Origin: a virus
Length of the DNA: 25,130 nt
Virus record (IMG/VR): IMGVR_UViG_3300025109_000061
Coordinates: 1-25,130 of that record
Strand: one strand, 5' to 3'
The notes below the pieces were generated by a model that saw nothing but the letters and a program-made list of their open reading frames with translations, was not told where the DNA came from and made no database searches. Shown here in pieces: positions 29-18,818 of this stretch. The position numbers and the translations under genes are program-made. The first letter of the stretch is position 1. Every line of letters begins with the position of its first letter.

Positions 29-561
29 CATGCACGCTCATTTTCGACACAGAAACCACTGGCCTCATTGACAACTCCCTGATCAGGGAGCAGCACCAGC
101 CTAGGATAATCGAGTTCTTCGGCAATGTGATCAATGAGAAAGGCAAGGTCATCGAGGAGTTGGAGTTCTTCGTGGACCCTGGCATCCCCATCCCACCGAT
201 CATCACCAAGATCACCGGCATCAATGCACAGACCTTGAAGGGTGCTAAGCCATTCAACGAACATGCTGATGCAGTCATCAAGTTGATTGGGTCTTCGGAT
301 GCTGTGGTGGCTCACAACCTGAGCTATGATCATGCCATCATGGAGTTTGAGATGCGGCGGCTGGGTCTTCAGCCAGAGTGGCCTGACACAATGGTGTGCA
401 CTGTTGAGGAGACTGAATGGTTCAAGGGTCACCGGCTCAAGCTGCAAGACCTTTATGAGTATTTGTTTGGCGAGGTGTTTGAGAATGCCCACAGGGCACG
501 CAACGATGTTGATGCTCTTACCCGGTGCTTCAATGAGCTCAGGAAGCGAGGGGACATCTGA
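25..561 (+). CDS. dnaQ: DnaQ-like 3'-5' exonuclease (DNA polymerase III epsilon type)
   Basis: This 178-residue protein is a DEDDh-family exonuclease, the type that proofreads for DNA polymerase III. The Exo I motif FDTETTG lies at residues 7-13 and supplies D8 and E10. The Exo II segment AHNLSYD supplies D102, and the Exo III segment HRARND supplies H156 and D161, so all five catalytic residues are present. It covers only the exonuclease domain; the clamp-binding and polymerase-binding tail of about 60 residues found in E. coli epsilon is missing or very short. The stop overlaps the start of the polymerase alpha gene by one base, so the two are probably translated together and work as one enzyme. 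A role in degrading host DNA is possible, but the coupling favours proofreading. Confidence 0.92.
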   Translation: MTCTLIFDTETTGLIDNSLIREQHQPRIIEFFGNVINEKGKVIEELEFFVDPGIPIPPIITKITGINAQTLKGAKPFNEHADAVIKLIGSSDAVVAHNLSYDHAIMEFEMRRLGLQPEWPDTMVCTVEETEWFKGHRLKLQDLYEYLFGEVFENAHRARNDVDALTRCFNELRKRGDI

Positions 562-3425
562 TGGCACGTATCCGCACAGGCTATTCCTTTCGCAATGCTG
601 TGGGCAAGCTGGACAATGTCATTAAAAGATTGTCCGAAATACACAACGAGGATGGAATCTACCCAGCTGCACCTATCACCGACAGAGCAAGTGCATTTGG
701 CTGGGTGCGCTGGTCGAAGCTCTGCGAGGACCACGACGTAAGGCCTGTGTTCGGGGTTGAGCTGGCTGTGACCAAGTCCATCAATGAGAAGCGACCGGTT
801 GCTGACCACTGGACATTCATAGCTGGCAAGAGCCTCGTGCCAATCAATCAGCTCATAGAGCTAGCCACGCAGCAATTCCGGTATCAGCCATTGCTGACCT
901 ATGAGCAAGCCTTGGCCAGTGGTGTAACAGTTATCGTCGGGCACCGTTCAGACCTGGACTCTGTTCCTCTTGGCAAGGACATATACATCGGCCTGGGCCC
1001 AGCCACCAGCAAGGGTTACATCGCCAAGGCTCTGAAGTTGAAGCATCAGCTGATTGCTGTGAGCGATAACAAGTATCCTTGGGCAAATGACCAAGGATTT
1101 TACGAGGTGGTGTGCGGCCGGAATGCCAGCACCCAATCGTACCCTCAGCACATATTATCGGACAAAGAGTGGAAGAAGGCAGTGTCTAAGGCTGTGCTCA
1201 GCCCTAAAACCCTACGCCAAGCGATGCTGAACACAAAGTCTGTTTTAAATAAATCTGTGGCAAAACTTGAGCAAGCTCATTTACTAATTCCGGAGAAGCC
1301 AAAGGCTTTACTGACGATGTGCCTTGAAGGTGCAGAGAAGTATGGCATTGATTTGAGCGATCCAATTTACAAAGAGCGCATGGATTATGAGCTTGGGCTG
1401 ATAGCTGAGAAGCAATACGAGGATTATTTTTACATCGTCGCTGACATCTGCGAGTTCGCTCGCAGCAGGATGATTGTTGGACCGGCTCGTGGTTCGTCGT
1501 GCGGAAGCCTTGTGTGCTACATGCTTGGCATTACAACCATTGACCCAATCCCCTATGGCCTTATCTTTGAACGGTTCATTGACATCAACAGGGATGACTT
1601 GCCAGACATTGACATCGACTTCTCTGATCAGCAGAGGCAGCTGGTCTTTGATTACATCAAAGACAAGTATGGCAAGGAGCGATGCGCTCGGCTCGGCACA
1701 GTGGCCATGTACAAGTTCAAAAGTGCACTGGGTGAAAGCGGTGCTGCCCTTCACGTCCCCCGGTGGAAGTGCGATGCTGTGAGCGAGTCAATGATCGTGC
1801 GGTCATCAGGCGACTCACGTGCACTGAACACCCTCGAGGATACGATGAAGACTATGCCGGCTGGCATTGAGCTGCTGGAGGAATTCCCTGAGATGATGGT
1901 GGCCACCAAGATGGAGGGTCACCCACGGCATTACTCCCAGCATGCGGCTGGAATCTGCATCGCTCAGAACCCCATCACAGACACCATCCCCATTGACCAC
2001 CGCTCTGGCGCCACCATGTGCGACAAAAAGGATGCTGAGGATTTGAACCTGCTCAAGATTGATGCATTGGGCCTGACCCAGCTGAGTGTGTTTGAAGATT
2101 GCCTTGAGCTGGCAGGATTGACCAGAGACGAGCTGGGTGATATCCCACTTGACGACAAGGCTGCATTTGATGTCTTGAATGATTCACATTTTGCTGGCAT
2201 CTTTCAATTCAATGGGATGGCCCTGCAATCCATAATCAAGCAGTTCAAGGTGAAGTGTTTCGACGACATCGTCTGTGTCACTGCGTTGGGTCGGCCAGGT
2301 CCACTAGCCTCTGGCGGTGCCCATGAATGGATCAGGCGCAAGAATGGCATCAACCCAATCACCTACCCTCATGAGATATTTGAGCCTTACCTGAAGGACA
2401 CCATGGGCATCGTCCTGTTTCAGGAGCAGGTGATGCAGATTGGTAAGGAGATTGGTGGCCTTGATTGGGAAACAGTCAGCACACTCCGCAAGGCGATGAG
2501 CAAGTCACTGGGCAAGGAATACTTTGACCAGTTCGGTGACCCTTGGAAAAAGGGTGCACTGGCCAAGGGTGTTGACCCCAAGGCAGCCGACAAGATCTGG
2601 GATGACCTGTGTGCGTATGGTTCATGGTCATTCAACAAGAGCCACTCTGTGGCCTATGGCATGATCAGTTATCAATGCTGTTGGCTCAAGGCACATCACC
2701 CATTTGAGTTTGCAGCTGCCACTCTCAGCCATGAAAATGACCCTGGGAGGCAGATCCAGTTGCTCAGGGAGATGCATGCAGAAGGCTACAGCTATGTGCC
2801 AATTGACCCAGAGAACTCTGGCCGGAAATGGTCGATCGGAGACAGGGACGGAAAAAAGGTTCTTGTGGGCCCATTGAACAACGTCAAGGGCATAGGCCCG
2901 AAGCTGGTGGCCAACATCACAGCTGCCCGTAGCCGTGGTGAGCCAATGCCTGACCGTGCACGCAAGCTGATGGAGAATGCCGTCACTCCGATTGATTCTC
3001 TGTGGCCGATACGTGATGGGTTCAGGAAGCTGCTGCCTGAACCTGCTGAGAGAAACATATACACACCACCCACCAACATTGAAGATGTGCAGATTGAGGC
3101 AGATGATTACGAGACCCTTGTGTTCTGCACACTGAGCAAGATCAATCCACGTGACGAGAACGAAGTGGTGATCGTGGCAAGGCGAGGCTATGAGGTCAAG
3201 GATGGCTTGACCACCTCACTGAATTTGCAGTTGACAGATGACACAGACACTGTCTTCGGAAAGATTGACCGCTGGAAATTTCCTAAGATGGGCAAAGAGA
3301 TTATTGATCGTGGTCGTGTGGGCAAAGCTCTGTACGCTATTAAAGGCAGGGTGCGTGGCGGTGGCTCATTCCGCATGATCATGATCAAAGGCATCAGATA
3401 CATAGGAGACTTGGATGAAAATTAA
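561..3425 (+). CDS. dnaE: DNA polymerase III alpha subunit, DnaE type
   Basis: This C-family replicative polymerase has 954 residues, shorter than the roughly 1160 of cellular DnaE. The palm motif PDIDIDF gives catalytic D349 and D351, and the segment KIDALGL gives the third aspartate, D501. GPARGSSCGS near residue 311 and FNKSHSVAYG near residue 691 are further DnaE hallmarks. A helix-hairpin-helix (NNVKGIG) lies near residues 775-781 and an OB-like domain fills the last 110 residues. The N-terminal PHP domain is recognisable, but its metal ligands are gone: the usual HxH is replaced by IRTGYSF and the usual TDH reads TDR. It probably cannot proofread itself, which fits the separate exonuclease gene just upstream. 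The start is set by the 1-base overlap and a GAGGGG ribosome binding site. I see no clear beta-clamp motif. Confidence 0.95.
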   Translation: MARIRTGYSFRNAVGKLDNVIKRLSEIHNEDGIYPAAPITDRASAFGWVRWSKLCEDHDVRPVFGVELAVTKSINEKRPVADHWTFIAGKSLVPINQLIELATQQFRYQPLLTYEQALASGVTVIVGHRSDLDSVPLGKDIYIGLGPATSKGYIAKALKLKHQLIAVSDNKYPWANDQGFYEVVCGRNASTQSYPQHILSDKEWKKAVSKAVLSPKTLRQAMLNTKSVLNKSVAKLEQAHLLIPEKPKALLTMCLEGAEKYGIDLSDPIYKERMDYELGLIAEKQYEDYFYIVADICEFARSRMIVGPARGSSCGSLVCYMLGITTIDPIPYGLIFERFIDINRDDLPDIDIDFSDQQRQLVFDYIKDKYGKERCARLGTVAMYKFKSALGESGAALHVPRWKCDAVSESMIVRSSGDSRALNTLEDTMKTMPAGIELLEEFPEMMVATKMEGHPRHYSQHAAGICIAQNPITDTIPIDHRSGATMCDKKDAEDLNLLKIDALGLTQLSVFEDCLELAGLTRDELGDIPLDDKAAFDVLNDSHFAGIFQFNGMALQSIIKQFKVKCFDDIVCVTALGRPGPLASGGAHEWIRRKNGINPITYPHEIFEPYLKDTMGIVLFQEQVMQIGKEIGGLDWETVSTLRKAMSKSLGKEYFDQFGDPWKKGALAKGVDPKAADKIWDDLCAYGSWSFNKSHSVAYGMISYQCCWLKAHHPFEFAAATLSHENDPGRQIQLLREMHAEGYSYVPIDPENSGRKWSIGDRDGKKVLVGPLNNVKGIGPKLVANITAARSRGEPMPDRARKLMENAVTPIDSLWPIRDGFRKLLPEPAERNIYTPPTNIEDVQIEADDYETLVFCTLSKINPRDENEVVIVARRGYEVKDGLTTSLNLQLTDDTDTVFGKIDRWKFPKMGKEIIDRGRVGKALYAIKGRVRGGGSFRMIMIKGIRYIGDLDEN

Positions 3426-5616
3426 ATCGCTTGATGATCTGAAATCAGTCAGAGCATATCTAACAAGGGTGGGGGCAGAGGCCCGATCCCTCAAGACAGC
3501 TGTTATCAGGGAGCAGTTCGGTAACTATTGGAAAGACCTTGCAATCATCCGTTTCAACAAGGAAGGCGAAGTCAATTGCTCGGTCGCTGAGCACGCACCA
3601 ACAGACTTGGAGGAGGCTTCCATCAAGCAGGAGTTCGCCAACGTAGAGTGGCCGACCATCAAGCCTCTGCACTCCATCGTCAAGCCTCCCAAGATGATCA
3701 AGGAAGCTGCCAAGGAGGACATATACGAATTCAGGAACACTACTGGTGAGATCATCTTCATTCAGGTACGCATTGAGCGTGAGGGAGACAAGAACTATGT
3801 GCCCTGGACCTTCTGGGACGATGACACGTGGCGGTGTTGTGAGCCTGACGGTCCATTGCCTTTGTACGGCGCAGACCGGCTCAAAGACAACTACGCAGTC
3901 TTCATCCACGAAGGAGCCAAAGCTGCCAGACACTGCCAGTGGATGGTTGATGCCGAGGAGGACAATGCCAAGAAGACTTTGGCGACGCACCCTTGGGGCA
4001 AGGAGCTAGCTGGTGCAGCTCACATAGGTTGGGTCGGTGGGGCCATGAGCCCGTACCGCACTGACTGGTCAATCCTGCAGAAGATGGGAATCAAAAGAGC
4101 ATACATCGTAGCGGACAACGACGAGCCTGGGAGGGCAGCTGTACCAGCGATCTCTCAACAGCTCCGGGCACCAACATTCATGATTCAATTCACTAATGAG
4201 TGGCCAGCATCGTTTGATCTGGCTGATGAGTTCCCTGAGTACTTGTTCGGTGAGGCTGGCGAGGCGCGACACTATGTAGGACCTAGCTGGCGCGATTGCC
4301 TGCATCCTGCCACATGGGCCACCGATCTGGTAGCTAACCCCAAGGGCAAGGCCACCCCGGTACTCAGGGATTCATTCAAGCATATGTGGTCTTACGTTGA
4401 AGAGGCTGACATGTTCATCTGCACTGAGATGCCTGAGATCATCCGCTCAGAGCCGATACTGAATAAGATGCTGGCACCCTTCAGCCATGCAGCAGAGACT
4501 TCCCGGCTCATCACCAAGGCATATAGAGGCAGGTCCACTAGGGTGTGCTACCGTCCTGATCATGATGGGTTGTTGGTGACATTTAGGGGCAGCTCGGCAA
4601 TCAACTTGCATGTCCCAACAAACATTAAGTCTGTCAAGGGTAATTCAAAGCCTTGGGAGGGCTTCCTGGGTTATATGTTCATGAATGAGAGCGAGTGCCA
4701 TGAGGTCATGAGGTGGTGTGCAACCCTGATCGCCAAGCCAGAGATACGCATGGGCTACGGCATGTTGCTGGTCTCTGAGAAGCAAGGCATAGGCAAGACG
4801 ACCCTAGGTGCCCACATCCTTGCGCCATTGGTAGGGGACCAAAATGTAGGCTTCCCTGGTGAGACTGACATAGCCAATTCAGCCTTCAATGACTGGATGG
4901 CCAACAAGCGCCTCGTCGTTGTGGGAGAGATATATTCCGGTCACTCATGGAAAGCCTACCACGCACTCAAGCCGGTGATTACTGACAGGGACGTGACCGT
5001 CAATCAGAAGTACATGAGGCAGTACCGTATTGAAAACTGGTGTCATGTGCTGGCCTCATCAAACTCCATGCGTGCATTGAAGATGGAGAACGATGATCGA
5101 CGATGGTTCTATCCGGAGGTGAGCGAGGTGGCATGGCCCAAGAGCAAGTTCCGTGACCTGCGCAAATGGATTGATGGTGGTGGGCTAGCCATCATCAAGC
5201 ACTGGGCAGAGAACTTCGGAGATTACGTTGATGTAGCTGACCGAGCGCCTATGACCGAGCGCAAGAAGGAGATGATTGAAGGCTCAAGGAGCGAGGCTCA
5301 GGCCGAAGCTGTGGCCTTGGCTGAAAGCCTAGCCGACTCTCAGGTTCCTGGCGCTATGGCCATGAAAGATGTGGTGATGTGGGTGCGCCAAGCCTCGCAG
5401 GGTAGGGTCTTTGACTCTGACTATGAGCTGCGCAAGGCGATGACTGAAGCTGGCTTACGCTCATGGCCGAAGAGGGTGAAGATTTCTGGCCGTTTGCAAA
5501 ATGTGGTGATGAACGAGTTGCTGTGGGACGAGGCTAAACGTAACAAGGCAGACTCAATTGAAACCATTCGTGAGGCGTGCAAAAAGCCTTCCGAGTTTAT
5601 GGAGTCAGCAATGTGA
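3415..5616 (+). CDS. Primase-helicase (TOPRIM plus P-loop ATPase)
   Basis: The 733-residue protein joins a primase-like TOPRIM half to a helicase-like ATPase half. The TOPRIM part shows IHEGAKAA (E166) followed by VADNDEPG (D234, D236), the acidic residues that bind metal in DnaG-type primases. The ATPase half has a Walker A motif, EKQGIGKTT, at about residues 455-463 (K461) and a Walker B-like stretch VVVGEIYSG (E505). It continues into a region resembling the DUF5906 phage/plasmid helicases, with SSN and DDRRW segments. There is no obvious N-terminal zinc finger. Residues 1-130 are not recognised beyond a short region usual upstream of such TOPRIM domains. The ATG follows AGGAG by six bases and overlaps the polymerase gene by 11 bases. 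It most likely unwinds the phage DNA and primes the lagging strand. Confidence 0.85.
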   Translation: MKIKSLDDLKSVRAYLTRVGAEARSLKTAVIREQFGNYWKDLAIIRFNKEGEVNCSVAEHAPTDLEEASIKQEFANVEWPTIKPLHSIVKPPKMIKEAAKEDIYEFRNTTGEIIFIQVRIEREGDKNYVPWTFWDDDTWRCCEPDGPLPLYGADRLKDNYAVFIHEGAKAARHCQWMVDAEEDNAKKTLATHPWGKELAGAAHIGWVGGAMSPYRTDWSILQKMGIKRAYIVADNDEPGRAAVPAISQQLRAPTFMIQFTNEWPASFDLADEFPEYLFGEAGEARHYVGPSWRDCLHPATWATDLVANPKGKATPVLRDSFKHMWSYVEEADMFICTEMPEIIRSEPILNKMLAPFSHAAETSRLITKAYRGRSTRVCYRPDHDGLLVTFRGSSAINLHVPTNIKSVKGNSKPWEGFLGYMFMNESECHEVMRWCATLIAKPEIRMGYGMLLVSEKQGIGKTTLGAHILAPLVGDQNVGFPGETDIANSAFNDWMANKRLVVVGEIYSGHSWKAYHALKPVITDRDVTVNQKYMRQYRIENWCHVLASSNSMRALKMENDDRRWFYPEVSEVAWPKSKFRDLRKWIDGGGLAIIKHWAENFGDYVDVADRAPMTERKKEMIEGSRSEAQAEAVALAESLADSQVPGAMAMKDVVMWVRQASQGRVFDSDYELRKAMTEAGLRSWPKRVKISGRLQNVVMNELLWDEAKRNKADSIETIREACKKPSEFMESAM

Positions 5617-6152
5617 TTGAAAGATATCAAAAGGGACATGTGAACGGGTTCGTGCCGCTTAGGTCAGGCAACATGGTGCATTTGATGATACCCAAGTGTG
5701 GGACCAACACTGTCGCTGAGGTGCTTCAGCATCGCAATGGCTGGGAGCGGTTCAGAGAAAAGATGTTTGATGAGGAGTGGGAGTACACTGCCATTGTGCG
5801 TCACCCTGTTGACCGTTGGGTGAGTGGGGCAATGCAATACGAGCAGGGTGGACAGCAGCGTCGGCATGGGTCTGTTGACAATGCCATTAAGAAGATGGTG
5901 TTTGACTGCCACACAGCGCCACAATATCTGTGGCTGATGGGCTTTGATGGTCATGTCAATCTCAAGTTGTTCAAGCTAGAGCACATTAAGCGTTTGTGGG
6001 AGCATCTTGGCATTACAAATTGGCGTGGAGTGCACAAACAGAAACGGATATACTTCCCAGGCCGAAGCAAGTTGGTGCTTGAGGAGAAGCATGAGGAACG
6101 CATCATGGATCACTATGCTGAGGATATGAGACTTTATGAAAGGGCAGAATGA
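5613..6152 (+). CDS. Sulfotransferase-like protein (PAPS-dependent)
   Basis: The protein carries both signature motifs of cytosolic/Golgi-type sulfotransferases. IPKCGTNT at residues 26-33 matches the 5'-phosphosulfate loop (usually PKxGTTS). VRHPVDRWVSG at about residues 62-72 matches the 3'-phosphate binding motif RxPxxRxxS, with R63 and S71. The family moves a sulfate group from PAPS to sugars, tyrosines or small molecules; the substrate here is unknown. An open frame begins with a GTG at 5577, inside the previous gene. I chose the GTG at 5613 because it overlaps the previous stop by 4 bases and has GGAG (5601-5604) eight bases before it, giving 179 residues. GTG at 5640 (after AAGGGA) and ATG at 5673 are alternatives. 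It is embedded in the replication operon, so it should be made early. There is no signal peptide, so it should act in the cytoplasm. Confidence 0.75.
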   Translation: MIERYQKGHVNGFVPLRSGNMVHLMIPKCGTNTVAEVLQHRNGWERFREKMFDEEWEYTAIVRHPVDRWVSGAMQYEQGGQQRRHGSVDNAIKKMVFDCHTAPQYLWLMGFDGHVNLKLFKLEHIKRLWEHLGITNWRGVHKQKRIYFPGRSKLVLEEKHEERIMDHYAEDMRLYERAE

Positions 6153-6385
6153 TGGCTGAGATAATAGGTGTGAAGAGGCCAGCGTGGCCTGTGAGGATGG
6201 AGATCAATGGCAAGGGTGTAAAGCTCAATGCTGATGGTAGTGTTGAAGGAGACATTGATGAGTTCATTAAGGAGGGTGAAGGGTATAAAGGTGATCTTGG
6301 TCCTCTTGGTGTTCCGCTTTGGTTGGTGCTCATACACCTGAGAGAAGAGAAAATATTCCAGAATGTCAGCAAAAATCAAGTGTGA
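6149..6385 (+). CDS. Small hypothetical protein
   Basis: This 78-residue protein of unknown function starts with two ATG codons and overlaps the sulfotransferase stop in an ATGA, with AGGG eight bases upstream. The sequence is mixed charged and glycine-rich in the middle. It has a short hydrophobic stretch (LGVPLWLVLIHL) near residues 52-63, too short and too near charges to be a confident membrane segment. No family is recognised. It overlaps the downstream nuclease gene by 23 bases, which supports it being part of the operon. Confidence 0.65.
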   Translation: MMAEIIGVKRPAWPVRMEINGKGVKLNADGSVEGDIDEFIKEGEGYKGDLGPLGVPLWLVLIHLREEKIFQNVSKNQV

Positions 6386-6794
6386 GCGCGATGTGCGCAA
6401 ATGGGTCACTAAAGAGTTTGGTGATCAGGTGCTGTGGGTTGAACATGCCTCTGGTGGCAGTGTTGGCTTCCCTGATTGTGTGCTGCTCATGGATCAGATG
6501 TGCTGGCCGATGGAGCTTAAATATGGCAACATTAAGAATGGCTATTGGTCTGGGTGGCTTCGTTCTGCACAAAGGATGGTTGGTAAACAGTTCTTGAAGC
6601 ATGGTGTGAAAATGCACATCCTTGTTGGTTCGGAATTTGAAAAGGTGCTATGGCTGTGCTCTTTTGAAAAGTATTTTCAGGCTGGTGAAGATGATAAAGA
6701 GGTGAAAATGGAACCTGTTTCCTGTCGGCTTGATGTTGTTTCTGCATTGTCCAAGTTGCCTGCAGCTAAAAAGCTGTGTGATGGGCTGTCGTGA
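6363..6794 (+). CDS. PD-(D/E)XK nuclease, VRR-NUC/Holliday-resolvase-like
   Basis: The 143-residue protein begins with a helix holding E8. The segment SVGFPDCVLL supplies D38 and MELKYG supplies E51 and K53, the layout G-x-PD ... E-x-K of VRR-NUC and archaeal Hjc-type nucleases. These enzymes cut branched or flapped DNA with divalent metal. In a phage, such an enzyme at the end of the replication operon would be expected to resolve branched replication intermediates before packaging, or to break down host DNA. Its N-terminal half carries all the catalytic residues; the C-terminal 60 residues are unrecognised. It starts inside the preceding gene, and its ribosome binding site is weak (GAGAAG, more than 10 bases upstream), so translation may rely on coupling. 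It is the last gene before the non-coding gap. Confidence 0.7.
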   Translation: MSAKIKCERDVRKWVTKEFGDQVLWVEHASGGSVGFPDCVLLMDQMCWPMELKYGNIKNGYWSGWLRSAQRMVGKQFLKHGVKMHILVGSEFEKVLWLCSFEKYFQAGEDDKEVKMEPVSCRLDVVSALSKLPAAKKLCDGLS

Positions 6795-6841
6795 TTGTGG
6801 AAAAAACCAAAAAGTTAAGTCCTTGTTTTCATTGAATACTG

Positions 6842-6951
6842 AGGTTCGGAGTTCGCTTTTTTTGCTTGTTTCAAGACTTTCAGGGAATTAATAAAGAGAA
6901 AGTAATTCCTAAGAGTTTTGGAATACAATGAAAAAAGCGAACTCCGAACCT
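6842..6951. repeat. 110-base near-palindrome (foldback)
   Basis: Bases 6842-6862 and 6931-6951 are perfect 21-bp inverted copies. Each arm has a GGTTCGGAGTTCGC core ending in a run of T (A on the other arm). The inner parts (6863-6890 against 6903-6930) are the same length and still partly complementary: the seven bases GGAATTA/TAATTCC next to the loop pair perfectly, and several other positions pair as G-U in RNA. The loop is the 12 bases 6891-6902. The whole element can fold into one long hairpin in RNA or a cruciform in DNA. It lies between the replication genes and the late genes. The T-run is inside the stem rather than after it, so it is not a standard intrinsic terminator on the + strand. 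Confidence 0.9.
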
Positions 6952-6980
6952 TGAGCCATACAGACCTGAAACTGTGTGAT

Positions 6981-7008
6981 TTGAAAACACACTTTGGCTT
7001 TATATAAA
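6981..7008 (+). promoter_or_regulatory. Candidate sigma70-type promoter for the late genes
   Basis: TTGAAA at 6981-6986 and TATAAA at 7003-7008 are separated by 16 bases, each one mismatch from the -35 and -10 consensus. The site lies in the only large gap of the window, just after the palindrome and about 80 bases before the first packaging gene. Transcription would begin near 7015, in a T-rich leader. This is a sequence match only, and the surrounding A+T-rich DNA makes chance matches more likely. Confidence 0.5.
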
Positions 7009-7087: not shown

Positions 7088-7405
7088 TTGGGAAGTGTGG
7101 CTGTTAAAAAATCAATGAATGGCACAGGCAAGGAGGCCACGCAATTTAAAGCAGGCAATCCTGGTCGTGCCAAAGGCTCGAAGAACAAGCGCACTGTGGC
7201 TGTGGCCGAAGCACTGCAGTCAGCGTTTGATGGCATTGGTGGGGTTGATGCTCTTATCAAATATGCAAAGACAGACACCGAAGGCTTTTATAAGCTATGG
7301 GTCAAGATGCTCCCACAACAAATTAAAGCAGACATAAGCATGAACGCTCCACTCATTGAGATCATCCAAGAGGGGAGGCGACGTGCATCACACAAACAAA
7401 GTTGA
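7088..7405 (+). CDS. terS: Small terminase subunit-like protein (DUF5681 type)
   Basis: The 105-residue, basic protein has the segment FKAGNPGRAKGSKNKR at about residues 20-35, typical of the DUF5681 proteins found just upstream of phage large terminase genes. This stretch probably contacts DNA, and the rest would form the helical oligomerisation part. In the family the small subunit finds the packaging site and feeds DNA to the large subunit. The start is uncertain. TTG at 7088 gives the longest reading, while GTG at 7097 and ATG at 7115 are in frame; none has a well-placed ribosome binding site (GGGAAG at 7090-7095 is too close to 7097). It overlaps the large terminase gene by 23 bases, which supports the assignment. 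It is the first gene behind the candidate late promoter. Confidence 0.7.
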   Translation: MGSVAVKKSMNGTGKEATQFKAGNPGRAKGSKNKRTVAVAEALQSAFDGIGGVDALIKYAKTDTEGFYKLWVKMLPQQIKADISMNAPLIEIIQEGRRRASHKQS

Positions 7406-8903
7406 TCCTGAGGTGATGCTGTGTGAGGACATGGCGCTCTTTTATACTGACCCATTAGGGTTTGTGATGTATGCATATGACTGGGACAATGATGCATCAA
7501 TTCAGATAGTTGAGTTGGCTGAGCCATGGGCCAGTAAGTATAATAGTAAGTATGGTCCTGATAAGTGGTCATGCAAGTTCCTTGATCGTTTGGGTGAGGA
7601 AGTTAAGAAGCGAGGCTTTGATGGCATCAATGCTGTCAACCCCATACGCATGGCAGTGACGTCTGGCCATGGCGTAGGCAAGAGCGCAATGACTGGTTGG
7701 TTGGTCAACTGGATCATGAGCACTCGCCCATACGCTCAGGGCACAGTCACTGCCAACACATATGCTCAGCTTGAGACCAAGACGTGGGCCCAAATCATTA
7801 AGTGGACTAAGAAGTGTGCCACATCACATTGGTTCGCAACGTCAGCCACTAAGATGTATCACAAGGACCACTCGGAGTCCTGGTTTTGTTCAGCCCAGAC
7901 ATGCCGTGAAGAGAACAGTGAGGCATTCGCTGGTCAGCATGCTGTGAACAGTACATCCTTTTACATCAATGATGAAGGCTCTGCCATTGCCAATATCATT
8001 TATGAGGTGCAGGAGGGTGGCCTGACCGATGGTGAGTCTATGCAGTTTAACTTTGGCAACCCAACACGCAACACTGGCTTCTTCCGTGAGTGCTGGCGCA
8101 AGTTCCGTCATCGCTGGATCACATTCAAGGTGGACAGCCGTGATGTTCAGATCACCAACAAAGAGCACCTACAGTCGCTCATTGATGACTATGGCATTAA
8201 TAGTGACACTGTCAAGGTGCGTGTACTAGGTGAGTTCCCAGCCCAGTCATTCAAGCAATTCATCAACGAGGCTGATGTTGAGGCAGCCATGGATCGTCAC
8301 ATCAAGCAGACATCCTACAGCTTTGCACCCAAGGTCATTGGCGTTGACCCGTCATGGTCAGGAGATGATGAGTTCGTCATAGGCATTCGCCAAGGACTCT
8401 TTTATAAGCAGCTGGGTAAATGGGAGAAGAATGATAATGATATTGAGATGGCCAACATCATTGCACGATTTGAGGATGATGAGGGAGCTGATGCTGTCCA
8501 CGTTGACGGTGGGTTTGGCACTGGCATTGTGAGTGCTGGCAAGACCATGGGTCGCAACTGGCAGATTGTATGGTTTAGCGCCAAGAGCCCAGATGTCGGT
8601 TGCATGAACCTGCGTGCCTATATGTGGAACCAAACACGTGTGTGGCTTAAGGACGGTGGGTGCATCCCTAAGGACGACATCCTTCATAGTGACCTCACAG
8701 GCCCAGAGACTGTGCCTCGTGTTGATGGCAAGATCCAGCTGGAGTCCAAAGAGGATATGAAGCGTCGTGGTGTGCCATCGCCCAACAGAGCTGATGCTCT
8801 GGCTCTGACATTTGCTATGCCTGTGGTCAAGGTTGATCATGTGCCAGTTAAGAAACAGAAAGCCCAGCATGACTTTGACCCATATGCACAGGAGAACGCA
8901 TAA
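7383..8903 (+). CDS. terL: Large terminase subunit
   Basis: This is the packaging motor ATPase and nuclease of about 506 residues. Walker A is SGHGVGKS at residues 94-101. The Walker B-like strand FYINDEGS gives D197 and E198, and FNFGNPTRN follows as the coupling region. The C-terminal RNase H-like nuclease shows GVDPSWSGDD (D322), VHVDGGFG (D375) and NRADALAL (D471), a full acidic triad. It cuts concatemeric DNA and pumps it into the prohead through the portal. The open frame extends upstream to a TTG at 7356, but the GTG at 7383 is preceded by GGAGG (7374-7378) at four bases, so I take that as the start. Its stop TAA overlaps the next ATG by one base. Confidence 0.93.
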   Translation: MHHTNKVDPEVMLCEDMALFYTDPLGFVMYAYDWDNDASIQIVELAEPWASKYNSKYGPDKWSCKFLDRLGEEVKKRGFDGINAVNPIRMAVTSGHGVGKSAMTGWLVNWIMSTRPYAQGTVTANTYAQLETKTWAQIIKWTKKCATSHWFATSATKMYHKDHSESWFCSAQTCREENSEAFAGQHAVNSTSFYINDEGSAIANIIYEVQEGGLTDGESMQFNFGNPTRNTGFFRECWRKFRHRWITFKVDSRDVQITNKEHLQSLIDDYGINSDTVKVRVLGEFPAQSFKQFINEADVEAAMDRHIKQTSYSFAPKVIGVDPSWSGDDEFVIGIRQGLFYKQLGKWEKNDNDIEMANIIARFEDDEGADAVHVDGGFGTGIVSAGKTMGRNWQIVWFSAKSPDVGCMNLRAYMWNQTRVWLKDGGCIPKDDILHSDLTGPETVPRVDGKIQLESKEDMKRRGVPSPNRADALALTFAMPVVKVDHVPVKKQKAQHDFDPYAQENA

Positions 8904-9142
8904 TGTGTATTGGCCCTTTCGCACCTAAAATCCCATCACCACCCAAGTTTGAGCCACCGCCAGTTCCGCCACCACCGCCGCCACCTCCCACCAAGGCGAA
9001 TGAATCGGTGAGGCGGGCACGTGAGGATGCTGAAACGCGTGCACGCCACCTTGCTGGTGACCGTTCAACCATTGGCCCCCTAGGTGCACAAGGACTATTG
9101 GTGCCAGAGAATACTGGCAAGACAACTCTGTTAGGAGGTTAG
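8903..9142 (+). CDS. Proline-rich small protein, copy 1
   Basis: The 79-residue protein starts MCIGP and has a proline run at residues 13-29. A short basic and acidic helix-like stretch (RRAREDAETRARH) follows, and the end reads GKTTLLGG. Small proline-rich proteins with a KTLLG-like end occur between terminase and portal genes in related podoviruses, but their function is not known to me; a portal- or head-associated minor protein is likely from position. The ATG overlaps the terminase stop (TAATG) and follows GGAG by eight bases. It is a paralog of the next gene. The closing codons contain AGGAGG, which serves as the ribosome binding site of the next gene. Confidence 0.8.
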   Translation: MCIGPFAPKIPSPPKFEPPPVPPPPPPPPTKANESVRRAREDAETRARHLAGDRSTIGPLGAQGLLVPENTGKTTLLGG

Positions 9143-9146
9143 ACCG

Positions 9147-9392
9147 ATGTGTGGAGGATCAGCGCCATCACCACCAGCGCCAGCGCCAGCGCCAGCGCCG
9201 CCACCGCCTGCTCCGTTGCCTCCCAAGGCACCAAAGGGCAGTAGGCGTCGTGCCAATGCAGCTTACTCAGCAACAAGGTCCAGGAACTCTGGAGCTTTGC
9301 AGCAGACAGGCGCAAGTGCAACCATCGGATCAAGCACCTTGCTGTCACAGGTAGGAGCAGGGTCCACTGGCAAGACTCTTTTAGGAGCTTAA
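9147..9392 (+). CDS. Proline-rich small protein, copy 2
   Basis: The 81-residue protein has the same plan as the gene before it: MC start, an Ala-Pro/Pro repeat at about residues 7-28, a basic segment (KGSRRRANAAY) and the end STGKTLLGA. The repeated gcgccagc DNA encoding APAPAP is a candidate for copy-number slippage. AGGAGG at 9133-9138 lies eight bases before the ATG. The last codons again hold AGGAG, now serving the TTG start of the portal gene. Function unknown; position next to the portal suggests a minor head or connector part. Confidence 0.8.
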   Translation: MCGGSAPSPPAPAPAPAPPPPAPLPPKAPKGSRRRANAAYSATRSRNSGALQQTGASATIGSSTLLSQVGAGSTGKTLLGA

Positions 9393-11136: not shown

Positions 11137-11453
11137 TGGCAGAAGTAGCTGAAGACTTTACTGACCCACGGCAGCACAAAAAGCGAAGCAAGGCTTTCAA
11201 GCTGCGTGAGACAAAGGAGAAGGAAGACTTAAGCAAGATGCTTAAAGACCCATCAGGGCGCAGAGTGCTATGGCGGATCATGGAGCAATCAAAATTGTTG
11301 GCGCCAGATATGTTCACTGGCAACAGCACCACTTTTTACAACCTGGGCAAGCGTGACCTCGGTCTTTGGTTGTACAACGAAATCATGGGGTCAGAACCTC
11401 AAGCGTTCATGAAGATCATGGACGAGCAATTAAAGGAGACGTTACATGGCTGA
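11136..11453 (+). CDS. Bbp19-like phage protein
   Basis: This 105-residue protein contains a pattern I recognise from Bordetella phage BPP-1 Bbp19 and its relatives: DPSGRRVLWRIMEQ, then FTGNSTTFYNLGKRDLGLWLYNEI at about residues 45-80 (written in two parts here because it is interrupted by KLLAPDM). The family is always found between portal and capsid genes in this type of phage; its role is not established. The first 35 residues are highly charged. GGGAGG at 11124-11129 sits six bases before the ATG, and the gene overlaps the portal stop by one base and the scaffold gene by eight. Confidence 0.8.
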   Translation: MAEVAEDFTDPRQHKKRSKAFKLRETKEKEDLSKMLKDPSGRRVLWRIMEQSKLLAPDMFTGNSTTFYNLGKRDLGLWLYNEIMGSEPQAFMKIMDEQLKETLHG

Positions 11454-12150
11454 AAAAGTTGCGGAAGAAAACACCGAACCCGCAGGTGAAAGTCAAGACG
11501 AGTCTTCAGACGATAAGGACGTGACCTCCTCGGCCGACGAAACCTTATTGACTAAAGACGAAGCTGCTGATCAAGATGCCGACAAAGCAGAGGACACCGA
11601 GAGTGACGATGCTGAAGGCGACGGTGAAGCAGAGCCTGTTGATTACGAAGATCTTACAATGCCTGAGGGCATGGAGATCGACGAGGCAATGTTGGGAGAA
11701 TTCAAAGATATCGCTGCCAAGATGAATGATGGTAAGGGATTGTCCAAAGAAGATGCCCAGCTGCTTGTTGATTTCAGAGCTAAGACCGTCAAGGATTCAA
11801 TAGGCGAATGGGAGCTCAAGTTCTCTGAGTGGCGAGGCGAACTGCTAAGCGACAAAGAGATCGGTGGTGACAAGTTTAAAGCAGAAACTGTCCCCAACGT
11901 CCTTGCAGCCACCGAAAGGTATGGCGACAAGGAGATGCTTGTCCTCCTACAAACGAACAAGATGTATGGTGAGAACCCTGCACTCGTTCGCATGCTAAAC
12001 CGTGTCGGGGAAACACTGCGAGCAGATCAACACGCTCGTGGAAGAGCGTCGGGACCGAATGATGAAGAAGCTCGGTTGCGTCGCATGTATCCAAGCCATT
12101 ACAACGAGGACGGGACCATGAAAGAACAAACGACTGGTTCCAAGTCTTAG
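11446..12150 (+). CDS. Putative scaffolding / capsid assembly protein
   Basis: The 234-residue protein is very acidic in its first 75 residues (runs of Asp, Glu, Ser). A predicted helical middle follows (about 80-150), and the C-terminus has a short basic stretch (HARGRASGPNDEEARLRR). Acidic helical proteins encoded directly before the major capsid gene normally act as internal scaffolds that guide coat assembly and then leave. Their sequences are poorly conserved, so the assignment rests on position, charge and length. AAGGAG lies seven bases before the ATG, inside the preceding gene. Confidence 0.7.
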   Translation: MAEKVAEENTEPAGESQDESSDDKDVTSSADETLLTKDEAADQDADKAEDTESDDAEGDGEAEPVDYEDLTMPEGMEIDEAMLGEFKDIAAKMNDGKGLSKEDAQLLVDFRAKTVKDSIGEWELKFSEWRGELLSDKEIGGDKFKAETVPNVLAATERYGDKEMLVLLQTNKMYGENPALVRMLNRVGETLRADQHARGRASGPNDEEARLRRMYPSHYNEDGTMKEQTTGSKS

Positions 12151-13755: not shown

Positions 13756-14556
13756 ATGGCATCATTCACTTCTGCTGGTGACTCTCTCGTATTGTCTGTC
13801 CCTAATAAAGGAACGACAATTGATGTGGCGATCTCCGGCACTTACAACATGACCATCGACCTTGAGCGTGAGGTTGGGGCTGTGGGCTCTGGTGCATGGG
13901 AGTTGATTGAAAGCTATTCAACTGCCAATGCCACAGTCGCAGATACTTATACGTCTGACAATTTCAACGAGCGCATTCGGCTCTTTGTTACTGTTGACAC
14001 ATCAGGAACTGCGACTGCTACTCTCACCGACAATGATGATAAGCTGAAGACCAAGTGGACTGATCAGGTTGGCAATGCTCTTATGGAGTTGCGTGATTCT
14101 GGTCTGATCCTTTATAAAGGTGTGCGTCATGGCACTGGGCATTCCGCTGTTGTTAATACAACAGAGGCCTTGGCCTTGACTGCTGCAGCTCATGCCGGTC
14201 GTATTGTCACCGCCAATCATGCAACAGGTTTTGCAATCACATTGCCTGAAGCAATTGGCAATGGTGATGTTTACACAGTCTTCTATGGTACTACCGTTGC
14301 GTCTGGTAGTGCAACAATTGTGGCTCCATCGGCCAGCACATCGTTCCTTGGTGGTTGTGGAATCTCAACCGATATCGCAGGTGTGACGATCATCTGTAAT
14401 ACCGGCGATGATACCATCACCATGAACGGTGGGACGACTGGCGGTCTGCTCGGTACTTGGTTCCGGTTCACAGACGTTGCCTCGGGCATCTTTATGCTTG
14501 AAGGCTTCCTCTGCTCGACTGGCTCCGAAGCTGATCCATTCAGCGCAGCCGTTTAA
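13756..14556 (+). CDS. Beta-rich virion structural protein (putative head decoration or fibre)
   Basis: The 266-residue protein lacks cysteine-rich or enzymatic motifs. Its first half (1-100) looks like an immunoglobulin-like or similar beta domain (TTIDVAISGTYNMTIDLEREVG). A hinge follows (LKTKWTDQVGNALMELRDSG), and the C-terminal half has the pattern FAITLPEAIGNGDVYTVFYG plus FLGGCGISTD. I have seen this pattern in small phage structural proteins near capsid genes. It is probably a virion surface protein; its partner is unknown. AAGGAG lies eight bases before the ATG. It follows the bistable hairpin and precedes a small basic protein. Confidence 0.7.
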   Translation: MASFTSAGDSLVLSVPNKGTTIDVAISGTYNMTIDLEREVGAVGSGAWELIESYSTANATVADTYTSDNFNERIRLFVTVDTSGTATATLTDNDDKLKTKWTDQVGNALMELRDSGLILYKGVRHGTGHSAVVNTTEALALTAAAHAGRIVTANHATGFAITLPEAIGNGDVYTVFYGTTVASGSATIVAPSASTSFLGGCGISTDIAGVTIICNTGDDTITMNGGTTGGLLGTWFRFTDVASGIFMLEGFLCSTGSEADPFSAAV

Positions 14557-15833: not shown

Positions 15834-18818
15834 ATGCCATCGGAAATCCCACAAATAGCATTTTCAGGCGGCGCTATATCGCCAGCAACATTCTCACGTG
15901 CTGACCTTGCCAAGTTCGGTTCGGCGGTCAAGACGTTGCGCAACTTCTTTGTGAGGGCAGAAGGTGGTGCCTCAAACAGAGCTGGCTTCACCTATATGAA
16001 GGAAACAAAGGACAGTTCTGTTCAGTCTCGCATCATTGGTTTTGAGTTTAACGAGGAGCAAGCTTACATCTTGGAGTTTGGCAATCTTTATTGCAGGGTG
16101 TACAGCAATGGCGGTGCCGTGCTTGAATCAACAACTACGATATCAGGTGCAACAGTTGCCAACCCTGTTGTGATCACTGATACAGCACACCCATATTCCA
16201 ATGGTGAGGAGATATTCATCACTGGTGTTGTGGGCATGACTGAGTTGAATGATAAGTTTTACAAGGTGGCCAATAAAGCCACAAACACTTACGAGCTTAC
16301 AGACATTGATGATGCTAACATTGATGGATCAGCATTCACAGCCTATTCATCCGCTGGCACATCAGCAGTTGTCCACACCATCACCACACCTTACACGACT
16401 GCCGATCTTGCTAAGCTGAAGTACAGGCAATCGAACGACACACTTTATTTAACCCATACATCTTATGCACCACGCACTTTGGTCAGGACTGGTGCAGCCA
16501 ACTGGACTCTCACTGTCATAGACTTTGAGCCAGACCATACATTCCCAACAGGGATAGGTGTTACAGTTAACACCACTGGCAGCGAGACCGATATTTATAT
16601 TGTGACAGCAGTGGCTGAAGAGACTGCAGAGGAAAGTCTTATTGGCATCAACAATACCACTCAGGCTATATCTGGTGCCACTGCTGCTGACCCAGTTGTG
16701 CTCACTGTTACGTCGCACCCATTCGAGGATGGGGATGAAATCCACATATCTGGCGTGGTCGGGATGACTGAGCTCAATGGTCGCCGTTTCATTGTTGCCA
16801 ATGAAGCAACAAATAGCATTGAGCTTAAAGATGAAGATGGCTCTGCACACACCACCTACAGCTCAGGTGGCTCGGCCAATCAGACATTTGTGAAAGTTAC
16901 GAACAGCAACACCACGAGAGACAACACAATAGCATGGACTGCTGTTGCCGGCACTGATTCATACAACGTCTATCGAGAGGATAATGGGCTCAAAGGGTTC
17001 ATTGGAGCAACAGAGGATGCTACATTCCTGGACGACAACATTGCACCCGATCTGGATGATACCGCTCCCAAGTGGCGGCAACCATTTGAGACAGCCACCA
17101 ACTACCCAGGAGCGATTGGCCTTCATGAGCAGAGGTCTGTCTTTGGCAATACAACCACAGACCCATTGACGCTCTGGATGTCACAGACATCTCAGTTTGA
17201 GAACATGAATGTGTCATCTCCAACACGAGACGCTGACGCTGTTACAGTCAGGCTGGTGACTGGGCGAGGCAATGAGATTCGTCACTTTAGGTCTTTCCAG
17301 GACCGGCTGTTTATCTTTACATCTGGTGCTGTGTGGTCGCTGCAGCCTGGTGGTGACGTTGATGCCATAACCCCAGCCTCAAAGAAGCTGTCAATTGAAG
17401 AGTATCTTGGATCAACCGATGTGCCACCTCTGACGATTAAGTCGAACCTACTCATCTGCTCTGGCCAAGCCAACCTTGGCTTCGAAATCCACTCCCTAGG
17501 CTACAAGTTTGAGACTGATGCTTACGCTGGCTCTGACCTGACTGTCCTTGCTCGGAATTTGTTTGAAGACTACACCATCAACGAGTGGGCATACGCAGAG
17601 CGCCCATTCAGGTTTGTGGCATGCATCAGAGACGATGGCAAGATTCTTGTCATGACCTATCTCCAGGAGCACCAGGTGTTTGCATGGAGTTTGTGGGAAG
17701 CGTCTGGAACCGATGCCGCCTTTGAGAGTATTGCTTCTGTGCCAGAGGGTCAGGTTGACAAGATTTATGTGATTGTCAAGCGCACAATAAACGGATCAAC
17801 CAAAAGATACATTGAGCATCTTCACACCAGATCATTCACAGCCATCGAAGATGCCTTCTTTGTTGACAGTGGCCTTACTCTTGATACGCCAATCACGATC
17901 ACAGGTATCACAGCTGCCAATCCTGCAGTTGTCACAGCAACTGCCCATGGCCTGACCGATGGTGATCCTGTCAAGATCAGGGATGTGTCTGGGATGACAG
18001 AGGTTAATGGGGATCAGTTCATCGTCATTGAGAAGACGACCAACACCTTTGAGATACTGGATACAGATGGTTTTCACAATGTCACTGGTGTCACAGCAGC
18101 CAACCCTGGGGTTGTCACGACACTCAGCGCCCATGGGTTCACCACTGGGGATGAGGTTGGCTTCTTGACGATTGGTGGCATGACTGAGCTGAATGGCAAT
18201 GGTTACACAATCACTGTGTTAACAACAACCACTTTTTCAATCGGAGTTGACACATCCGCATTCACTACATTTACGAATGGCGGAAAGGTATACTTGAACA
18301 CTGATTCCTCAGCCTTCACAGCTTATGCCTCGGGCGGCGAGGTGCACCTGGAGGTGACATCTGTTTCTGGCCTTGATCATCTTGAAGGTGAAGCAGTTAT
18401 TGCGCTTGCTGATGGCAATCTTGTCACAGGCTTGACGGTTGCAAGTGGTGCCGTCACGCTAGCCACTGCAGCATCGGTAGTTCACGTCGGGAAGAGTTAC
18501 GATGGTACGATTGATAGCTTACCACTGGACCTTCCTGGCCCAGTACCGACAGTTGCAAAGCGCAAAGTTGTTAAGCAGGTGTCAGTCAGGGTTCAGGACA
18601 CTCGTGGTTTGTTCATTGGGCCGGATTCAACCGACCTTGAGGAATACCCATCAAGGTCAACCGAGCTGTGGGGTGATCCTGCTGCGACCTTGACCGATTT
18701 AATCAAGTTGCCCATCAGTGATGATTGGGCTCGAGAGGCTGGGATAACAATTAAGTCTGAACAGGGATTGCCAATGACAATACTCTCAATGATGGTGGAC
18801 ACCGATGTCGGATCATGA
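15834..18818 (+). CDS. Tail tubular protein B / tail nozzle with FCCH-like repeats
   Basis: At 994 residues this is the large nozzle protein of the short tail (T7 gp12 type). The N-terminus carries the family motif GGxxSPATFSRADL...YxxAxKTLRNFF in variant form (residues 12-40). GASNRAGFTYM follows at 45-55, where the family typically has a similar turn. Four FCCH-like repeats are inserted at about residues 103-176, 279-347, 689-749 and 750-818. A fibronectin-like segment (AWTAVAGTDSYNVYRED) at about 365-381 is followed by DDNIAPDLDDTAP. The core LHEQRSVFGNTTTDPLTLWMS-type stretch lies near 425-446, and FTSGAVWSLQ near 495. The rest is the beta-propeller and C-terminal ring typical of the family. 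It probably closes the tail until ejection. The ribosome binding site is weak. Confidence 0.88.
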   Translation: MPSEIPQIAFSGGAISPATFSRADLAKFGSAVKTLRNFFVRAEGGASNRAGFTYMKETKDSSVQSRIIGFEFNEEQAYILEFGNLYCRVYSNGGAVLESTTTISGATVANPVVITDTAHPYSNGEEIFITGVVGMTELNDKFYKVANKATNTYELTDIDDANIDGSAFTAYSSAGTSAVVHTITTPYTTADLAKLKYRQSNDTLYLTHTSYAPRTLVRTGAANWTLTVIDFEPDHTFPTGIGVTVNTTGSETDIYIVTAVAEETAEESLIGINNTTQAISGATAADPVVLTVTSHPFEDGDEIHISGVVGMTELNGRRFIVANEATNSIELKDEDGSAHTTYSSGGSANQTFVKVTNSNTTRDNTIAWTAVAGTDSYNVYREDNGLKGFIGATEDATFLDDNIAPDLDDTAPKWRQPFETATNYPGAIGLHEQRSVFGNTTTDPLTLWMSQTSQFENMNVSSPTRDADAVTVRLVTGRGNEIRHFRSFQDRLFIFTSGAVWSLQPGGDVDAITPASKKLSIEEYLGSTDVPPLTIKSNLLICSGQANLGFEIHSLGYKFETDAYAGSDLTVLARNLFEDYTINEWAYAERPFRFVACIRDDGKILVMTYLQEHQVFAWSLWEASGTDAAFESIASVPEGQVDKIYVIVKRTINGSTKRYIEHLHTRSFTAIEDAFFVDSGLTLDTPITITGITAANPAVVTATAHGLTDGDPVKIRDVSGMTEVNGDQFIVIEKTTNTFEILDTDGFHNVTGVTAANPGVVTTLSAHGFTTGDEVGFLTIGGMTELNGNGYTITVLTTTTFSIGVDTSAFTTFTNGGKVYLNTDSSAFTAYASGGEVHLEVTSVSGLDHLEGEAVIALADGNLVTGLTVASGAVTLATAASVVHVGKSYDGTIDSLPLDLPGPVPTVAKRKVVKQVSVRVQDTRGLFIGPDSTDLEEYPSRSTELWGDPAATLTDLIKLPISDDWAREAGITIKSEQGLPMTILSMMVDTDVGS
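16140..16874 (+). repeat. FCCH-like repeats 1 and 2 in the tail nozzle gene
   Basis: Two protein-level repeats of about 70 residues lie at 16140-16361 and 16668-16874. Each has the form ISGATxAxPVVxTxxxHP, then GxEIxIxGVVGMTELN, then VANxATNxxEL, ending in TxYSSxG. The pattern is the one annotated as ubiquitin-activating E1 FCCH domain in databases, seen often in phage tail proteins. In phage proteins it is best read as a small beta-barrel surface module. Confidence 0.85.
17898..18341 (+). repeat. FCCH-like repeats 3 and 4 plus a half repeat
   Basis: Repeat 3 (17898-18080) and repeat 4 (18081 to about 18288) are back to back, each starting with ITGITAANPAVV or VTGVTAANPGVV and containing GMTE(V/L)NG. 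A further half copy follows (DSSAFTAYASGGE, ending near 18341), nearly repeating DTSAFTTFTNGGK just before it. The tandem placement and partial copy suggest growth by duplication. Confidence 0.85.

Follow-up and report, generated by a model that had tools for sequence, protein, structure and literature searches.

SaPI/PICI origins are located directly 3' of rep, and two sets of iterons flank an AT-rich region (PMC6092414; PMC7581432). pRN1 requires a 100-bp stem-loop, composed of a 21-nt stem and a 58-nt loop, 3' of its PrimPol-SF3 gene (PMC4234260). In pRN1-type stem-loops the shape is conserved and the sequence poorly so, and a similar loop has been proposed in the middle of the genome of Bordetella phage BIP-1 (PMC4234260). 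P4 alpha consists of a Toprim primase, a helicase, and a C-terminal winged-helix initiator, and binds origin repeats (PMC4234260). Phage NrS-1 carries two recognition sites in the middle of its genome, one on each strand (PMC7102993, PMC8718748).

The DNA analysed here (the window, 25,130 nt) is an IMG/VR virus contig. A near-identical sister contig, G001 (38,029 bases), gives the larger context; base p of the window corresponds to base p + 11,969 of G001. Near base 7,000 of G001, to the left of the window, a leftward and a rightward operon diverge. In the window, a palindromic element is preceded by an exonuclease-type gene, a DnaE-type polymerase, the primase-helicase Rep, a sulfotransferase-like ORF, and a small nuclease, and is followed by the terminase small and large subunits, portal, protease, and major head protein. 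The features are as follows, in window coordinates.

561–3425, + strand: phage DNA polymerase III alpha-type (DnaE-type) polymerase.
3415–5616, + strand: Rep, the proposed initiator, a primase-helicase whose N-terminus is Toprim-like, with DUF5906 (NrS-1-like helicase) and a winged-helix-like fold at the C-terminus.
6363–6794, + strand: small VRR-NUC-like nuclease gene, by homology to a gene of L011.
6842–6951, no strand: whole palindromic element, copy A; proposed replication origin.
6842–6862, + strand: left arm AGGTTCGGAGTTCGCTTTTTT, with tandem GTTCG words at 6844–6848 and 6851–6855 (period 7).
6863–6930, no strand: AT-rich spacer, 31% GC, partly self-complementary; possible melting region.
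6931–6951, − strand: right arm AAAAAAGCGAACTCCGAACCT, with both words inverted (CGAAC at 6938–6942 and 6945–6949).
7088–7405, + strand: probable terminase small subunit (TerS), the first gene 3' of the element; conserved in L010, L008, and L011, and preceding the large subunit.
7356–8903, + strand: terminase large subunit (TerL), epsilon15-type.

The assignment of the start codon of the probable terS gene is unsettled. The nuclease gene, searched by itself, matched no family; its homolog in L011 matches VRR_NUC at E = 0.007, which is below the cut-off, and the phrog_93 endonuclease at 1e-6. In most relatives with this Rep, the nuclease gene is located between Rep and the element. The ORF at 5577–6152, between Rep and the nuclease, is weakly similar to sulfotransferases (Pfam Sulfotransfer_2, E = 0.003, below the cut-off), and L010 has at the equivalent place an ORF with a similar size and C-terminus. 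Other repeats are present in the window. An exact inverted pair of 20 nt (GATGTGCTGGCCGATGGAGC) at 6497–6516 and 14323–14342, 7.8 kb apart, exceeds the length expected by chance; one copy is inside the nuclease gene and the other inside a late gene. At 8954–9235, the short ORFs between the large terminase and the portal contain runs of CCACCGCC/CCAGCGCC-type repeats. The 994-aa tail protein encoded at 15834–18818 has repeated modules (direct repeats at 16146, 16674, 17904, and 18087).

The two arms, AGGTTCGGAGTTCGCTTTTTT and AAAAAAGCGAACTCCGAACCT, are exact inverse complements separated by 68 nt, at precisely the coordinates given by the initial annotation. Among the longest inverted repeats listed for the window, they are the sole long exact pair at a short distance. 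The 110-nt unit is 73% identical to its own reverse complement (E = 2.4e-10) and was thus rightly called a near-palindrome; its loop of 12 bases, the presence of the T-run within the stem, and its location at the border between the replication and packaging-head genes had also been correctly described. No intrinsic terminator was called at 6842–6951 on either strand and the T-run lies within the stem, which agrees with the earlier statement that this is not an ordinary terminator. As RNA, 6832–6961 folds far below shuffled sequences on the + strand (−57.0 kcal/mol, z −9.8) and on the − strand (−46.9 kcal/mol, z −10.0), none of the 200 shuffles being as low on either. The DNA folds of the element, −31.0 (z −8.5) and −29.5 (z −8.4), are about equal for the two strands in comparison with shuffles. 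The inner mismatches had been characterised as often G-U compatible, with inner parts drifting as RNA-tolerant pairs. Copy A itself has 6 G.U versus 2 A.C mismatches, which fits the former statement; counts pooled from eight family members are 32:19 (p = 0.09), or 27:18 without the second copy, and those of a wider set are 41:33. Because the polarity over the eight members is not significant, RNA-tolerant drift is not established.

Each arm is composed of the tandem words GTTCG-GA-GTTCG, mirrored on the opposite arm around the spacer. In the 38,029-base contig, the 12-mer GTTCSNNGTTCS is found at exactly four places, namely the two arms of copy A and the two arms of a second copy, B. A test for tandem words is weak for the window arm alone (p = 0.20), and gives p = 0.0007 for the homolog in L010 and p = 0.001 for that in L108. 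Among related loci, 13 of 25 arms show p < 0.05, with a combined p of about 3e-19, for words that were spotted by eye before testing and for arms some of which were picked with the pattern in mind. The 68-nt spacer falls in the lowest 1% of 68-nt windows for GC (the genome is 50% GC), and the whole intergenic region holding the element in the lowest 0.2%. Spacers are AT-rich in most relatives, the exceptions being L054, L041, and L013. A search of viral contigs for the core pattern TCAGGGAA..GAGTTTTGGAAT returned extra matches that are mostly one identical, coding-looking, unrelated stretch; the match in L019 is also unrelated.

Copy B is found at 3653–3763 of G001, 15 kb away in the leftward operon and 17 nt upstream of the start codon of an SNF2-type helicase gene. 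It is a whole unit, 89% identical to A, and the likeness reaches the stem ends and extends little beyond. Both copies are intergenic and are oriented alike with respect to the operons in which they lie. A search of close relatives for copy B upstream of SNF2 helicases returned just the same species and one distant helicase. The missing second copy elsewhere means little, because several contigs are fragments. The SNF2-type helicase (L016:1970-3641, P0001) is similar to helicases of defence systems (DpdE, ZorD, and BREX) in PADLOC; its probable role in the phage is in replication or repair. The leftward operon of the 38-kb sister contig also contains, near a gene start, an exact inverted repeat of 19 nt (GAGGCACTTACCGGGAAGG; L016:5277-5295 and 5414-5432) with a span of 156 nt.

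The two-copy arrangement recurs in a second lineage. In G012, the contig of L111, a word search revealed a second element, B2, at 3486–3590, 12 kb from the rep-linked element A2. It lies in a syntenic leftward operon with an SNF2 helicase 46% identical to that of the window phage and with visibly similar neighbour genes. Compared with copy B, B2 is one gene away, upstream of a different gene, and antisense to the operon; therefore, a conserved orientation to transcription can no longer be argued. Within a genome the copies are 89% (A and B) or 83% (A2 and B2) identical, and between the genomes 66–69%. Thus, all arms of one genome change together, in step with Rep.

In its helicase part, Rep is similar to the NrS-1 primase helicase (PDB 6k9c/6k9e; E = 3e-9 alone and 3e-13 with a profile). 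The N-terminal part contains the Toprim-like motifs EGAKAA and DNDEPGR. A structure predicted from 8 sequences has a mean pLDDT of 49.5, and only the Toprim-like part and the C-terminal domain of it are usable. The best matches of the predicted N-terminal fold are the primase domains of T7 gp4 and DnaG (E 9e-4 to 2e-2). The last ~100 residues, with pLDDT above 80, are predicted to fold into helices and then a small sheet, in the manner of a winged helix. The combination of an AEP PrimPol, SF3, and a winged helix is not that of the window Rep, and it is partly present in L007, L009, and L031.

Copy A has the features of PICI-type origins: it lies 3' of the initiator gene, with two iteron sets and an AT-rich middle. 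As in SaPIs and PICIs, this initiator is a primase-helicase; VapE-type helicases occur in some relatives of the window, and the window and the terS-carrying PICIs agree in the order rep - origin - terS. On the other hand, the window belongs to a tailed phage with its own DnaE-type polymerase; its element is 1.2 kb 3' of rep with small genes between, whereas the PICI origin is directly adjacent; and short mirror-image words form a near-perfect palindrome, which is present in two copies per genome in two lineages. The element resembles the structures of pRN1 and BIP-1 in being a ~100-bp stem-loop 3' of rep whose shape is kept while the sequence varies (here, stem 21 and loop 68). It differs from pRN1 in that the primase of the window Rep is Toprim-like, not AEP, the arms consist of tandem words, and there are two copies. 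The likeness to NrS-1 lies in the helicase part of Rep and in the two sites per genome; the NrS-1 sites are, however, single 8-mers and its primase is AEP-type, in contrast to the arm words and Toprim-like Rep of the window. The satellite phage P4 has two cis sites, ori and crr, and both are needed. Going by its description, P4 may be similar in the domain order predicted for Rep, and two copies of the element are present in G001 and in G012.

Two other genomes show the same design. In BPP-1, arms with tandem 9-mers, TTTGCCTCG twice and inverted, are found at 26607–26710 (L114:4608-4711) between the primase and terS genes, where TTTGCCTCGTTTGCCTCGTTTC is inverted around a short spacer. This repeat may differ from the BIP-1 structure, which was drawn next to position 27,177. 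In a Roseospirillum prophage, GGGGTCTGCGGGTCTGC arms lie 20 nt after the Rep stop codon and are followed by a small ORF in the position of terS and by an unrelated TerL. Because the design is common to SaPIs, PICIs, pRN1, BPP-1, and this prophage, the window element seems to be a member of the SaPI/PICI-pRN1 kind of origins. It looks to depart from the known kind in its Toprim-type Rep, its near-perfect palindrome, its distance from rep, and its duplication.

Relatives of Rep were found in other phages and in bacterial genomes. L108, L111, and L112 have Rep proteins 71%, 65%, and 50% identical to that of the window, and in the sequence examined they have no homolog of its TerL, TerS, or portal. 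The terminases identified, phrog_606/979 in L108 and phrog_83/9 in L111, belong to families different from those of the window. Nevertheless, all three loci have an inverted GTTCC-type element about 0.7–1.5 kb 3' of rep, and in L108 and L111 it precedes the terminase genes. Conversely, L007, L009, and L031 have homologs of the window TerL (76%, 70%, and 71%) and portal, but their Rep is an unrelated PrimPol-type protein and their inverted-repeat words are GGTGG, GGTAAC, and GGTG. These facts indicate that the word follows Rep, not the terminase. This is the prediction of an initiator-binding site, and not of a packaging site or a late-operon RNA signal. The initial annotation had suggested selection on the outer arms, or their recent formation, and a search of related phages. 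The search supports selection: the arms persist in relatives, a change of word affects both arms, and a single word is common to the two copies of each genome.

No such element was found in the sequence examined of the Rep relatives L109/L110, L121, and L123. L119, an alphaproteobacterial MAG contig with a related Rep, has four strong inverted repeats with unrelated words less than 5 kb after rep (8118–8288, 8438–8551, 11182–11297, and 11658–11828). The contig of L112 opens with a perfect 124-nt palindrome (L112:1-124, score 62); at the end of a contig, this could be an artefact of assembly or of the library.

Among 41 non-redundant TerL-related loci, 14 have their top inverted repeat within ~920 nt before terL (4.6 expected, p = 8.6e-5), and in the other 27 it is elsewhere. 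The words before terS vary by lineage: GGTAAC, GGTGG, GGACACATA three times, GCCCCATC, CCACA, and others. In the loci checked, the gene just upstream is a primase-helicase, which has Prim-Pol, PriCT_2, and DUF5906 in L007, L009, and L031, is VapE-type in L013 and L044, and is AAA_25-type in L041, L045, and L049. The element adjoins the 3' end of rep in L007, L009, L013, L030-L032, L041, L044, L045, L054, and L120. The word CCACCACC is confined to the element region in L007 (4 of 4 occurrences in the contig), and so is AAGGTAAC in L009 (7 of 7). Pattern searches with a gapped word whose gap was too short, and with GGGTCTGC at a spacing wrong for L120, gave nothing useful.

Several other roles have been considered for the element, most of them already listed in the initial annotation. 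A structured RNA in the mRNA, such as an RNase III site or a regulatory hairpin separating the replication and packaging transcripts, would agree with the very stable fold of the transcript, with the intergenic position and common sense of A and B, and with the lower raw free energy of the sense strand in most family members. The shuffle-corrected z of copy A is, however, equal on both strands, G.U mismatches do not significantly exceed A.C, B2 of G012 is antisense to its operon, and an Rfam scan of the element matched no family. An RNA model does not predict a word that follows Rep, either. An RNase III site or decoy RNA is therefore unsupported, a transcript role is not needed, and we consider such a role improbable. 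Alternatively, A and B could be a pair of Rep-binding operators which control the terS operon and the SNF2 helicase and are not origins. Both are upstream of genes, B being only 17 nt from the helicase start codon, and it is plausible that a DNA-binding replication protein also regulates transcription. The precedents in PICIs, SaPIs, and pRN1 are origins, however; the spacer is AT-rich, no promoter-like site above chance was found around copy A, and B2 is upstream of a different gene. This possibility, too, appears quite improbable.

If the element were a packaging (cos/pac) site for the small terminase subunit, whose gene comes next, its place immediately before terS in the window and many relatives would be explained. 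Against this role, the element goes with the replication protein rather than the terminase: phages with unrelated terminases have it in common, and it differs among phages with related ones. Two copies 15 kb apart do not suit a packaging site either, and we regard it as very improbable. Equally slight is the probability of a MITE-like mobile foldback element, copied between A and B and without a role for the phage. Such an element could account for the likeness of A and B that ends at the stem ends, and for the location of the second copy of G012 one gene away in the other orientation. Yet no consistent target duplication is visible by eye, and BLASTN returned nothing for the region against named phages or for the element against plasmids. 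Within a genome, a change of the word is seen on all arms at once. Homologs at the corresponding place in several phages (L010, L008, L011, L108, L111, and L112), and the recurrence of two copies with the same word in the second lineage, also speak against a foldback remnant.

A replication signal was one of the roles listed in the initial annotation, and it is the one to which the evidence points. Judging from the sequence comparisons, the element is probably a double-stranded DNA replication origin that the Rep encoded by the phage itself recognises; it would belong to the SaPI/PICI, P4, and pRN1 type and is here duplicated. In this reading, the C-terminal domain of Rep would bind the arm words, and the tandem words in mirrored arms would bring two Rep assemblies face to face on either side of the spacer. 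Being AT-rich and self-complementary, the spacer would melt or extrude. Rep would unwind and prime the DNA, and hand over to the phage DnaE-type polymerase. Copy B would be a second Rep-binding site, acting as a second origin, a partner site like crr of P4, or an operator. Some facts count against an origin. GC skew tracks gene direction without switching at the element, rep is 1.2 kb away, each arm has only two 5-nt words, and the near-perfect stem is longer than word binding requires. So do the Rep relatives L109/L110, L121, and L123, with no such element in the sequence examined, the unrelated words of L119, and the 27 TerL-related loci whose top repeat is elsewhere.

A wider two-site system can be proposed only tentatively, and we think it rather unlikely. 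Tailed phages with self-loading primase-helicases might carry two inverted-iteron palindromes, 12–15 kb apart in divergent operons, which are kept alike in word by evolving in concert and are recognised by one Rep, and replication would need or coordinate both. If this were true, the PICI replicon and phage modules of this sort would be connected by their common gene order, rep - origin - terS.

To our knowledge, the origins of most environmental phages are unknown. A rule based on sequence alone, inverted tandem words 3' of a primase-helicase gene with a word co-varying with the initiator, predicts many phage origins, including that of BPP-1. The origin layout that was described as unique to phage-parasitising satellite islands is now seen in tailed phages with a putative origin of this kind, and this bears on the source of the satellite replicon.
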